Shown in pieces: positions 15,152 through 59,796 of a stretch of 64,000 bases of DNA. This DNA comes from Rufibacter psychrotolerans (GTDB lineage: Bacteria; Bacteroidota; Bacteroidia; Cytophagales; Hymenobacteraceae). The notes beneath the pieces are model-generated. The model worked only from the letters and a program-made list of their open reading frames with translations, ran no database searches and had not been told where the DNA came from. Position 1 is the first letter of the stretch. Every line of letters begins with the position of its first letter. Position numbers and translations under genes: made by a program. Location: assembly GCF_016924645.1 (NCBI RefSeq), contig NZ_JAFFJV010000011.1, positions 124,001 to 188,000 of the forward strand, given 5' to 3'.

Positions 15152-15337
15152 GAATGCTTGCCTGATGTAGGAGAGGGGCCAACAAGTTCTTTCCCCCAGT
15201 CGTTTAGGTCAGGAAGAGCAGTTTAAAAAATGAAAAAGGAGGGGCAAGAGGCCGCTCCAGACCTATAAATTTCATGAATGGAATGCGTGGTACATCTCAT
15301 TCACTCCACCACGCATTCACACAATCACTCATTTAAC

Positions 15338-16744
15338 ATGTTAGATTCAAGCAAGTATTTAACCCCCAGCCAGATTGTAGCCGAGCTAGATAAATATATC
15401 ATTGGGCAGCACGACGCCAAACGCAACGTGGCCATTGCGTTGCGCAACCGCTGGCGCCGGATGCACGCCAACCCCGAGATGCAGAAGGAGATTGTGCCCA
15501 ACAACATCCTCATGATTGGCGCTACTGGGGTAGGTAAAACCGAAATCGCGCGCCGTTTGGCCAGCATTGCTGATGCGCCGTTTACCAAAGTGGAAGCCTC
15601 TAAATTCACCGAAGTGGGCTACGTGGGCCGCGACGTGGAAAGCATGGTGCGCGACCTGGTAGAACAGGCCGTGAACATGGTCAAAACCCGCAAGAAGGAA
15701 GAAGTAAAGCTACAGGCCGCCCAGCAAGTGGAGGAAGTGATCCTGGATGCGCTGATCCCGCCCATCAGCCAGCCGGGCAACCGCGACATGGTGGGCTTTG
15801 GCAGCAACAATCATCCCACCTCAGACATCCCCGACAGCGACCATGAATTGAACGAGCGCACGCGCGAGCGTTTCCGGGAAAAGATCAGGAACGGCGAGTT
15901 GGAGGACCGTAAAATCGACATCAAGGTATCGCAGAACCCTACCTCAGGGGTGGGCATCGCCGGCCCGGGCATGGACGAAATGTCCATGATGAACATCCAG
16001 GAGATGATCGGGAACATGATGCCCAAGAAAACCAAGAAGCGGAAAGTAACCATCGCCGAGGCCCGCAAACTGCTTCTGGAAGAGGAAGCTGCCAAGCTCA
16101 TTGACATGGACGAGGTGAAGGAAGAAGCCATTTCCAAAGCCGAGAACGCCGGCATTATCTTCATTGATGAAATTGACAAGGTAGCCAGCTCCAGCAACAA
16201 AGGCGGCGGCGGTCCTGACGTGAGCCGCGAAGGCGTGCAGCGCGACCTGCTTCCTATTGTGGAAGGCAGCACCGTGAACACCAAGTACGGCGTCATCAAA
16301 ACCGACCATATTCTGTTCATCGCGGCCGGGGCGTTTCACGTGGCTAAGCCCTCAGACTTGATTCCGGAGTTGCAGGGCCGTTTCCCCATCAGAGTGGAAC
16401 TGCAGAGTCTCAGCACCGACGATTTCTACCAGATCCTGAAGTACCCTAAAAACGCCCTGACCAAGCAGTACGAAGAACTGCTCCGCGCCGAGGGTGTGGA
16501 ACTCAGTTTCACCGATGAGTCCCTGCATAAGCTTGCCGAAATCTCCTTCCAGGTGAACGCCGAAGTGGAGAACATCGGGGCCCGCAGACTGCAAACCGTC
16601 ATGAGCCGCCTGCTCAACGACATCCTGTTTGACGTACCCGACACCATCCCCGCCAACGCACGCCTCATGATCACCCCAGAATTGGTGGAGGAGCGTCTCC
16701 GCGACATGGTGAAAAACCGCGACCTGAGCCAATACATTCTTTAA
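15338..16744 (+). CDS. hslU: HslU, ATPase subunit of the HslUV protease
   Basis: A 468-residue AAA+ unfoldase that feeds substrates to the HslV peptidase. Early motifs are LTPSQIVAELDKYIIGQ and Walker A GATGVGKT at residues 61-68. An inserted I-domain follows at about residues 110-245 (Met/Lys-rich middle), then Walker B IIFIDEIDK near 277 and a C-terminal sensor region ending in DLSQYIL, as in HslU of other bacteria, where the C-terminus docks on HslV. The ATG at 15338 is chosen over an upstream ATG at 15278, which adds a His/Ser-rich stretch. hslV is not adjacent and must lie elsewhere. Confidence 0.96.
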   Translation: MLDSSKYLTPSQIVAELDKYIIGQHDAKRNVAIALRNRWRRMHANPEMQKEIVPNNILMIGATGVGKTEIARRLASIADAPFTKVEASKFTEVGYVGRDVESMVRDLVEQAVNMVKTRKKEEVKLQAAQQVEEVILDALIPPISQPGNRDMVGFGSNNHPTSDIPDSDHELNERTRERFREKIRNGELEDRKIDIKVSQNPTSGVGIAGPGMDEMSMMNIQEMIGNMMPKKTKKRKVTIAEARKLLLEEEAAKLIDMDEVKEEAISKAENAGIIFIDEIDKVASSSNKGGGGPDVSREGVQRDLLPIVEGSTVNTKYGVIKTDHILFIAAGAFHVAKPSDLIPELQGRFPIRVELQSLSTDDFYQILKYPKNALTKQYEELLRAEGVELSFTDESLHKLAEISFQVNAEVENIGARRLQTVMSRLLNDILFDVPDTIPANARLMITPELVEERLRDMVKNRDLSQYIL

Positions 16745-16764
16745 GTAGGAAGTAAGAATTGAAG

Positions 16765-16796
16765 GAGCCGCTGCCGAATGGGGAGTGGCTCTTTTG
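16765..16796 (+). terminator. Terminator after hslU
   Basis: A hairpin with AGCCGCT and AGTGGCT arms followed by CTTTTGTTTT, 20 bp beyond the hslU stop. The stem is interrupted by one mismatch. Confidence 0.55.
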
Positions 16797-16834
16797 TTTT
16801 CGGGCTGTTTTGGGGAAAGGAGGGTGAAAACGGA
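16795..16834. repeat. P1 palindromic repeat copy (degenerate)
   Basis: TTCGGGCTGTTTTGGGGAAA on the left and GGTGAAAACGGAA on the right. It directly abuts the hslU terminator and the P2 element. Confidence 0.5.
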
Positions 16835-16837
16835 ATT

Positions 16838-17198
16838 GGCGGAGACGCTCGCAGGTCCCGCGGCCGCTACGAGGTCTTTTGAGAGGCGACAAGGCGGAGG
16901 CAGACGCAATAGACCCACCCCTGCCCCTCCCAGGAGGGGAGTTTCTGTTTTCTAGCTGGTTTTCAGAATTCAAGCCGAAAACAGTTTGATGCAGCTGTGC
17001 ATGGGACTATACTTTGGAGTTCCCATTCCCGTAACTTAATTTTCAAGGCTGCAGAGAGAAGTATTTACTCCCTCTAAACACGCATACCCGAAACTCCCCT
17101 CCTGGGAGGGGCGGGGGGTGGGTTCAATGAGCTTCCCACCGCCTTACCGCCTCTCAAAAGACCTCGTAGCGTCCGCAGGACCTGCGAGCGTCTCTGCC
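16838..17198. repeat. P2 large inverted-repeat element
   Basis: Two ~108-bp arms (16838-16945 and 17090-17198) face each other across about 144 bp. Each arm contains a GGAGACGCTCGCAGG-type end, an AAAGACCTCGTAG block and a CTCCCCTCC/GGGAGGGG hairpin next to the centre. The arms match over most of their length but not perfectly. No open frame in the centre looks coding. The same module recurs at 22597-22640, 43573-43655 and 59422-59657. It fills the gap between hslU and the SDR gene. Confidence 0.75.
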
Positions 17199-17296: not shown

Positions 17297-18025
17297 ATGC
17301 ACTACTATATCATCACCGGAGCCAGCCGTGGGCTGGGGAAAGCGTTGGCCGAGGCCTTGCTGGAAAACGAGCAGAACTTTGTGATAGGCGTGTCCCGCAA
17401 CAATACCCTTACGCACGCCCGCTACCGGCACCAGCCGCTGGACTTTTCAGACATTGCCGGGGTAGAGCACAACCTGCACAAGGTGTTCGCCCCGCTGGAA
17501 GATGCCCAGAAAATAGTGCTGGTGAACAACGCCGGGGTCATTGGAGAAATAGGCTACATGGGCCAGAGCAAAAACGAGCACTTTGAGTACGTGTTTGACG
17601 TGAATGTGATTGTGCCGGCCATGTTCATGAACCTGTTTCTGCAAAGCTACCAGCACCGCCCTCACTGCCAGAAAATGATTGTGAACATCAGCTCCGGGGC
17701 CGGGCAGAAAGCGAAGGACGGCTGGGCCGCCTACTGCGCTTCCAAAGCCGCCCTGGACATGCTCTCGCAAACGGCGCAGCTGGAGCAGCAGCAACTGGGC
17801 ACCGGGGTAAAGGTATTCTCGGTGGCGCCCGGCATCATTGACACCGAGATGCAGGAGCAGATCAGGGAGGCTCCGGTGGAGCAGTTCAGCAGTGTGCAGC
17901 AGTTCAGGGAGTACAAAAAACAGGGGGCCCTGGCCTCGCCCCAGGAAGCGGCGCAGAAGATTCTCCGCCTGATAGACGAGCCGCAGATTGCGCGGGGCGT
18001 GGTGTGCTCCGTGCGGGATTTCTAG
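17297..18025 (+). CDS. Short-chain dehydrogenase/reductase (benzil reductase/sepiapterin reductase-like)
   Basis: A 242-residue NAD(P)-dependent oxidoreductase of the classical SDR type. The cofactor motif TGASRGLGKAL is at residues 7-17, followed by the NNAGV motif, the active-site Ser in VNISSGAG and YCASK with catalytic Tyr146 and Lys150. The PGIIDTEMQEQIR segment is typical of the sepiapterin/benzil reductase branch. Substrate cannot be deduced. It stands alone between a P2 element upstream and a P1 repeat directly at its stop. Confidence 0.85.
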   Translation: MHYYIITGASRGLGKALAEALLENEQNFVIGVSRNNTLTHARYRHQPLDFSDIAGVEHNLHKVFAPLEDAQKIVLVNNAGVIGEIGYMGQSKNEHFEYVFDVNVIVPAMFMNLFLQSYQHRPHCQKMIVNISSGAGQKAKDGWAAYCASKAALDMLSQTAQLEQQQLGTGVKVFSVAPGIIDTEMQEQIREAPVEQFSSVQQFREYKKQGALASPQEAAQKILRLIDEPQIARGVVCSVRDF

Positions 18026-22596: not shown

Positions 22597-22640
22597 CAAA
22601 AGACCTCGTAGTGTGCGCAGTTCCTACGAGTGTCTAAGCC
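22597..22640 (+). repeat. P2 module, solitary
   Basis: CAAAAGACCTCGTAG, then TTCCTACGAGTGTCTAAGCC. It matches the outer part of the P2 arms at 17153-17198 and 59616-59657. Confidence 0.6.
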
Positions 22641-22650
22641 AAAAACAAAA

Positions 22651-43572: not shown

Positions 43573-43655
43573 ACCCACCCCTACCCCTCCCAGGAGGGGA
43601 ATCATCTGCAACGTTGGCAGGAGAAAGTCCCCTCCTGGGAGGGGTAGGGGTGGGT
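43573..43655. repeat. P2-type inverted repeat, short form
   Basis: Perfect 27-bp arms (43573-43599 and 43629-43655), each with CCCCTCC/GGAGGGG inside, around 29 bp. It is the inner part of the P2 element at 16838-17198. It lies in the 43382-43830 gap, where no gene was seen. Confidence 0.8.
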
Positions 43656-59103: not shown

Positions 59104-59141
59104 TGATTTAGGGCAGATTTTGGGAAAAGAGCCGCTAAATG
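59104..59141. repeat. P1 palindromic repeat copy
   Basis: GATTTAGGGCAGATTTTGGG on the left and AAAAGAGCCGCTAAATGG on the right. Confidence 0.6.
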
Positions 59142-59421
59142 GAATCTTCTGTGGCTGATGCCCTGGCTTTTCTGTTTGTCTAAGGCTGTATGAGTTGTGC
59201 TGCTGCGTCTTTTCCGGTAAGCGCTCACGGCCGCAGGGCCCCGTCTTCCCCTCTCGCACTGCCCTTGCGGCCCACGCGCGCAGTCCGCTCTTAGCAATAG
59301 CTATCCAAGGGCCACAGGCGAGGCGCTCCAGAGAAAGACTGGAATGGGTGCGTTTAGCAAAGGCTTTTTGAGGCTGGTAGCGGAAGTTCTGCTGGTAATC
59401 ACGGATGTTCTGCAAACGTAA

Positions 59422-59657
59422 ACCCACCCCTGCCCCTCCCGGGAGGGGAGTCATCTGCACGAGTAAGGGAATCGCCTTAGCTGTCCTTAGACTTCGGCTT
59501 CTGCAATCCATTGGCAAGGTCCACCCTAAAGTAAATGGTTGGCTATGCAACAAAACTCCCCTCCCGGGAGGGGCAGGGGTGGGTACACGTTTGCCCCCAC
59601 TTTACCGCCTGCTTCAAAGACCTCGTAGAGTCCAGAAGACCTGCAAGCGTCTGCGCC
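59422..59657. repeat. P2 inverted-repeat element
   Basis: Perfect 30-bp arms (59422-59451 and 59555-59584, with CCCCTCCCGGGAGGGG inside). The AAAGACCTCGTAG module continues on the right to 59657. It is closely related to the right arm of the element at 16838-17198; the left outer module is missing here. Confidence 0.8.
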
Positions 59658-59662
59658 AAATC

Positions 59663-59702
59663 CTGTTTAGAGGCCATTTCCCGCAAATTAGGCTAAAACC
59701 AG
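59663..59702. repeat. P1 palindromic repeat copy
   Basis: CTGTTTAGAGGCCATTTCCC on the left and GCAAATTAGGCTAAAACCAG on the right. Confidence 0.6.
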
Positions 59703-59735
59703 AATGCCCGGCTATTCCAGAGATAACCGGGCATT
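59703..59735. other. Hairpin
   Basis: AATGCCCGG and CCGGGCATT arms with a 15-nt centre, between two P1 copies. It lacks a T-run and may or may not be a terminator for the reductase gene. Confidence 0.45.
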
Positions 59736-59749
59736 GGGCGAGGGAGTAC

Positions 59750-59790
59750 GTGTTTAGGGGCCGTTTTCATGGAAATGGCCCCTAAATGCA
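59750..59790. repeat. P1 palindromic repeat copy, near perfect
   Basis: TTTAGGGGCC and GGCCCCTAAA outer arms around GTTTTCATGGAAAT. It begins 6 bp after the reductase stop on the minus strand. Confidence 0.75.
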
Positions 59791-59796
59791 TTGAAC

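Follow-up and report, generated by a model that had tools for sequence, protein, structure and literature searches.

The window analysed here comprises 64,000 nucleotides of the Rufibacter psychrotolerans genome (contig NZ_JAFFJV010000011.1, positions 124,001 to 188,000 of the forward strand). Between a gene that we take from its sequence to be hslU-like, which ends at 16744, and a presumably short-chain-dehydrogenase-like gene, which starts at 17297, lies a non-coding palindrome of about 362 bases (16837-17198), designated P2 (Table 1). Its arms (16837-16945 and 17090-17198) are 87% identical over 108 aligned positions with one gap, and an inverted-repeat search recovers them in two parts, namely 16838-16921/17115-17198 (84 nt, 85% complementary) and 16918-16945/17090-17117 (28 nt, 96% complementary). 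Folded as single-stranded DNA, P2 reaches -131.1 kcal/mol compared with a mean of -54.9 kcal/mol (sd 4.7) for 100 dinucleotide shuffles (z = -16.1), which confirms the inverted repeat with ~108-bp arms described in the first-pass annotation. Its statement that the centre is devoid of an open frame also holds: no listed open reading frame of at least 80 aa lies within these 148 bp, and one minus-strand frame of 100 aa (16671-16973), antisense to the hslU-like gene, enters the centre by 30 bases. P2 is short, non-coding and bounded by terminal inverted repeats like a MITE, and its two inverted units pair into a single hairpin as in a REPIN. At gathering scores nothing in the window matches Rfam, and P2 is unmatched among plasmid records.

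Table 1. Features of P2 and of related repeats; positions refer to the window unless a locus (L) or contig (C) is named
Feature	Position	Strand	Evidence
Upstream gene, presumably hslU-like; marker of the orthologous site in relatives	15278..16744	+	
M hairpin-like sequence, GTTTTCGGGCTGTTTT...GAAAACGG, adjoining the left O on its outer side	16796..16833	+	read by eye
Left outer module (O) of P2; forms an imperfect hairpin by itself	16837..16882	+	profile search (L057:838-883)
Left-arm linker between O and I, mostly complementary to the right linker	16883..16912	+	inverted-repeat and profile searches
Inner module I, left; ACCCACCCC tail and CCCCTCC/GGAGGGG hairpin	16913..16943	+	profile search
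Centre of P2, 148 bp	16944..17091	.	ORF list, similarity search
Right inner module (I), facing its left counterpart	17092..17123	-	profile search
Right-arm linker	17124..17153	-	inverted-repeat search
Right outer module (O) of P2	17154..17198	-	profile search
Downstream gene, presumably short-chain-dehydrogenase-like; used for fetching the site of relatives	17297..18025	+	
Solitary O module	22597..22641	-	profile search (C30:146597-146641)
Convergent I pair, 22 bp apart, without O	43573..43655	.	profile search
Larger repeat: O, linker, I, centre, I', tail, conserved hairpin block	59107..59792	-	similarity to other copies
Convergent I pair, O present only on the right; centre inverted relative to O compared with three other copies	59421..59658	.	
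Other copies of the conserved block	L058, L061, L062, L066, L073, L090, L104, L253-L256, L259-L262, L268, L033:11326-11555		
RAYT genes above the cut-off	L093:1390-2800 (C28) and L094:1660-2540 (C30)		

The arms of P2 are composed of two repeat families, O (~45 bp, foot TTGGCN-AGAC) and I (~31 bp, foot ACCCACCCC), each of which forms a hairpin. The first similarity search with P2 returned 110 matches in the genome, and 40 of 86 first-look candidates were scored. In the fetched loci of R. psychrotolerans a profile search finds 57 O and 79 I modules, and thereby the expected repeat family with conserved ends; a pattern search with at most three mismatches finds 47 and 69, with no match for the reversed control patterns. 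All three further sites that had been assigned to the same arm module are recovered by the profile search, but this single module resolves into two families, O and I, which vary independently in the genus (e.g. 74 O and no I in genome G001, 13 O and 84 I in G002). Single modules look like decay products, as had been proposed. By pattern, O is present in all 16 genomes of the genus, one per species, with 4 to 90 copies each. In a sample of 241 genomes from the order it occurs in eight, comprising all four drawn from the genus and four of five from one other genus of the family. At no more than two mismatches, I is found in two of 296 genomes sampled from the phylum, R. psychrotolerans and one single match elsewhere.

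By our own count from the profile search, the fetched loci of R. psychrotolerans contain 33 convergent I pairs; 14 of them are flanked, at no more than 100 bp, by an O that points inward, six of these (P2 among them) on both sides, and an O inside the pair is never seen (0/33). Seven O pairs within 600 bp are free of I, and back-to-back O modules form one cluster (L118). Looser orders occur in relatives, with O between two outward-facing I (L218) or a divergently oriented O and I (L265). Some composite elements of R. psychrotolerans (L060, L067, L070, L075, L084) have O and I separated by a further layer, D; it is AGTCCTGAGTCTTGAGTGCTGAGT-like on the left, and in most of the five the right side shows the reverse complement. 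The non-coding spacer between O ends ranges from 44 to 431 bp, with 768 bp in L122, where neither a RAYT match nor an ORF above 169 aa was found. A tblastn search with two RAYT proteins detected no RAYT remnants in 28 non-coding centre sequences from 26 places, and blastn of these centres recovered mostly one shared palindrome, which is also located inside the RAYT loci L181 and L195, and two further matches of 23 and 26 bases. The centre of P2 itself has no other copy among the genome matches from the 40 of 86 first-look candidates scored, which cover only query positions 1-114 and 237-361; this counts against P2 having moved as a unit. A facing I pair 1.3 kb apart in G002 (L216) was considered as an autonomous I element and rejected, since the enclosed gene is presumably fabG-like. 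No transposase lies between I pairs in the loci examined, and the sole I match near a RAYT is weak (L146, E 0.031).

The hairpin structure of O is conserved. Across 112 distinct O sequences the 14 proposed base pairs are 90.3% paired (shuffle maximum 87.5%), with two weak pairs at 65% and 37%, and slid pairings drop to 28-41%. One apical pair is C-G in 54 sequences and G-C in 50, and the number of double-change cells amounts to 61 compared with a shuffle maximum of 34, the kinship among copies being left in. To judge from these alignments, the O hairpin is kept by compensatory change. In 28 of 119 modules the short motif AAACG, with which an M hairpin ends, begins 12-20 bases ahead of the O core; a control interval further out has none, the reverse complement gives one and shuffles give about two (maximum 7). 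This spacing places some O modules at the foot of another hairpin, and most are without such a sign by this test.

In other genomes of the genus, inward-facing O modules represent the ends of an element of about 750 bp with one gene, which encodes a RAYT-kind HUH/Y1 transposase of usually 203-205 aa (187 in L181). All 12 RAYT ORF entries of this type, the O clade, have an O within 400 bp, compared with two of 61 other RAYT ORFs, and eight entries have facing O modules on both sides. The 12 entries correspond to 11 genes, three of them being fragments or read-throughs that belong to two G010 genes, and eight unbroken O-gene-O' elements were read. Both exceptions among the 61 concern another RAYT of 187-188 aa with its own two-layer repeats, which lies inside an O pair with a degenerate left O in L135 (G013) and beside an O in L137 (G006). 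By eye, the O ends of P2 are of the GTCC/GGAC type, as are those of the gene-bearing loci L167, L177, L180 and L194 and one end of L163. The transposase with matching ends that the first-pass annotation had suggested to look for is accordingly present, at 53% identity or more, in seven of the 16 genomes of the genus. It is missing in R. psychrotolerans (best match 28%), where it would therefore have to act in trans. O counts are higher in genomes with the gene (27-78) than in those without (4-90; p = 0.015), apart from the geneless genomes of G013 (90 O) and R. psychrotolerans (47 O by pattern).

The assignment of the O-clade proteins is based on profile and structure comparisons. The family model NF047646 matches all four proteins scanned (E 4e-16 to 7e-19, 59.1-68.2 bits), none of which reaches its curated cut-off of 80 bits, and NF033573 matches none of them. 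Pfam Y1_Tnp is sub-threshold in two of the four and misses the other two. TnpArep (PDB 4er8) is the best match of the O-clade profile (E 4.9e-6) and ranks first for the predicted fold (E 1.6e-7), which also matches 2xma and 2vjv; the fold model is of moderate quality (pLDDT 72, compared with 45-54 for the other four models). The O-clade protein is thus predicted to have a TnpArep-like HUH/Y1 fold. In the available text of PMC6006769, the motifs of TIRYT subclass 2.1 are NHVH or NH[YF]H, W[EQ] or FQ, and YIELNP or Y[IV]HLNP. O-clade proteins contain NH[VIF]H and LFQ, and YIHFNP or YLHFNP in place of the third motif. Subclass 2.1 also has a C-terminal helix-turn-helix extension; for the O clade, C-terminal helices are predicted with low confidence, and one of the four proteins has a weak Homeobox_KN match (E 0.032).

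R. psychrotolerans has seven RAYT-like loci according to the model search, and two of them (L093, L094) are above the RAYT cut-off. Both genes are flanked by facing pairs of their own, different palindromes with a CTGGCGCGAG head, and their fetched stretches contain neither O nor I. They are therefore not obvious cognates. O and I are equally absent from the fetched stretches of the other five loci (L156-L160).

A comparison of orthologous sites provides an overview of the occupancy across species. One gene-bearing site, bordered by an acetyltransferase-like and a convergent gene, was compared in 16 genomes. An O-gene-O' element is located there in five of them, with the gene running with the acetyltransferase-like gene in G001, G010 and G011 (broken in G010) and against it in G006 and G014. 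Two genomes have O ends without the gene: in G013 two O modules enclose another palindrome with M-like sequence outside, and R. psychrotolerans harbors a nest of I modules with a full O on the right and, read by eye, an O fragment on the left. The site is a mere gap of 17, 39, 39 or 48 bp in four genomes and shows other arrangements in the remaining five. With five of 11 O-clade genes at one orthologous site, the distribution looks like vertical inheritance more than active spread. At the P2 site, 24 relatives share the gene order; an O pair is present in two, a lone O in one, a lone I in one, and neither module in 20. The presence/absence pattern that the first-pass annotation had asked for among strains is hence seen at the same sites across species. 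One O-pair relative (L032) has a different O subtype on both arms, which are 75-81% identical to the P2 arms and 91% to each other, and its flanks align to the P2 site at 82% and 91%; the arms of the other (L055) are 84-91% identical to those of P2. The centres of the three O-pair genomes have no significant match among each other. The gap behind the hslU-like gene holds further elements, namely other insertions, some coding-looking by eye, in Rufibacter sediminis and R. hautae (L035, L036), and another facing, TCATCCTGAAAGGATC-like palindrome upstream of the P2 site in L034, L038 and L055.

The element at 59421-59658 is part of the larger repeat at about 59107-59792, which P2 shares incompletely. 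Many half elements with O on one side only occur in R. psychrotolerans and G003, and the side of O follows the orientation of the centre in seven of seven G003 copies and in four of six R. psychrotolerans copies with homologous centres. The two turned-round centres are those of C22:111109-111352 (L058) and of the element in the window (centre 59452-59553). Altogether 21 of 25 comparisons of O side and centre orientation agree and four do not. An inversion between facing I modules would explain the turned centres, and a possible invertible segment is thereby indicated; the idea that half elements are directional units was withdrawn, since two of the six R. psychrotolerans copies have a flipped centre. 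Half-element copies run on into a conserved block, which was not found around P2. In the window this block (59144-59373, minus strand; L059:345-574) is more conserved than its surroundings and contains stops in the frames read. Its consensus fold from 17 copies has 35 pairs, two with compensatory change. The block has no Rfam match above threshold and no plasmid match, and the only Rfam hits around 59 kb are two sub-threshold matches to eukaryotic families. The block may represent a structured RNA or a further family of hairpins.

We interpret P2 as a non-autonomous hairpin element whose O ends are probably (p roughly 0.8) the terminal inverted repeats of a small RAYT-type HUH/Y1 transposon. 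The support is comparative throughout and comes from the O-flanked gene in relatives, the conserved O hairpins, the species-variable occupancy of the sites, and a geneless genome that retains O. Because its ends correspond to those of a transposon that is intact in related genomes, P2 is most likely a defective passenger of this transposon, and another repeat family is nested within P2. The O-clade transposase would bind O hairpins as single-stranded DNA, cut near the O foot around TTGGCN-AGAC, and move O...O' units in trans without target duplication. P2 may have originated from an O...O' element that lost or never had the gene, would then have taken the second hairpin family I into its middle, and would now be immobile in R. 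psychrotolerans.

The first-pass annotation described P2 as a MITE-like element that depends on a transposase in trans, and this non-autonomous reading largely stands. The long inverted arms, the non-coding centre and the high copy number of the modules would also suit a classical MITE in decay, belonging to a cut-and-paste (DDE) insertion sequence, but the ends match an HUH/Y1 gene and are hairpins with compensatory change. The target-site duplications that had been named as a check did not stand out in 40 O-pair boundaries; the best counts for k = 2-5 are 7, 3, 1 and 1, compared with shuffled maxima of 10, 5, 3 and 2. Given this lack of duplications and the hairpin-recognising HUH/Y1 kind of the transposase, P2 is rather TIRtron- or REPIN-like, and a DDE origin is very improbable. 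Selection for a host function, e.g. as terminator, mRNA stabiliser or site for a nucleoid protein, could also hold the hairpins in place and make mobility only apparent. The strong P2 hairpin, the compensatory changes in O, and terminator-like matches at I (16924-16941; two found, shuffle mean 1.0) are in accordance with such a function. However, O and I are both missing from this gap in 20 of 24 relatives, the modules flank a transposase gene elsewhere, and immediately after the hslU-like gene, before P2, a hairpin with Ts behind it can be made out by eye, although the terminator scan did not list it. Host function as the primary explanation is hence improbable, and a secondary host role may exist.

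P2 could alternatively have grown in place by template switching, the palindrome being extended or corrected and one arm copied into the other. Arms of the same element are 92.6% identical compared with 84.4% between elements, a difference reached in 0 of 2000 permutations (41 pairs, one place duplicated) that keep the relatedness among pairs, and L032 carries its different O subtype on both arms despite aligned flanks. However, one transposase subtype recognising both ends gives the same pattern, L055 is without a clear pattern, and insertion is favoured by a site that is a short gap in some genomes and gene-bearing in others. We consider growth in place unlikely; the arm likeness may be due to joint recognition by one transposase subtype or to arm correction. 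A tentative further reading is that hairpin elements might serve as landing sites for others. M outside O outside I would then represent concentric “Russian doll” palindromes, formed as several unrelated palindromic families insert at the foot or loop of one another; in these the transposase gene could be swapped for a non-coding nest at the same place, the core might flip between its arms, and the paired arms would be kept alike by correction or joint recognition.

P2 combines properties of several known systems. BIMEs are mosaics of several palindromic modules, and so are P2-type elements, but O lies outside I in 14 of 14 combined I pairs of R. psychrotolerans, with L218 and L265 as loose exceptions. 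The IS200/IS605 family moves without target duplication and resembles the O elements in this respect, in the Y1 transposase fold and in the hairpin ends. It differs in that the O ends are inverted copies of each other and in that the four scanned proteins match the RAYT model instead of NF033573. Our placement is based on the available parts of four sources (PMC6006769, PMC3733652, PMC3116915, PMC8266576). TIRtrons (TIRYTs) are described there as RAYT-like genes between terminal inverted repeats, some self-complementary, which also occur singly and paired elsewhere in the genome (PMC3733652). The RAYT-kind gene between facing O modules, in relatives only, and the dispersed O family agree with this description; the GGGGWSAS motif is absent from O by eye, an O site is also occupied without the gene, and I and partly M hairpins are stacked with O. 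REPINs are described as inverted hairpin units with a less conserved spacer and predicted HUH/Y1 movement in trans, single units being remnants (PMC3116915). P2 likewise has two inverted hairpin units around a less conserved spacer. It deviates in the length of O (~45 bp versus 20-40 bp for a REP unit), the absence of the GT[AG]G foot, the variable spacer between O ends (44 to 431 bp, 768 bp in L122), which in REPINs is short and of fixed length, and the O-clade gene between two ends in relatives. As far as these sources describe the systems, P2 is closest to TIRtrons and TIR repeats in anatomy and cognate gene (PMC3733652) and to REPINs in its way of working (PMC3116915). Since O lacks the GTAG foot and the proteins stay below the RAYT cut-off, P2 and O are filed as a variant. 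Literature queries, made mainly by repeat or transposase type and little by genus, returned no paper on O/I repeats in Rufibacter and nothing fitting on the nesting of such hairpin elements.

The comparison links an orphan palindromic family of R. psychrotolerans to a transposase of a named type that its relatives carry. The gene-bearing site provides a natural series at one location, i.e. empty, with the gene in either orientation, with the gene lost, and nested. This series makes it testable whether RAYT-like genes move with their ends as a unit and whether hairpin elements preferentially land on hairpins.
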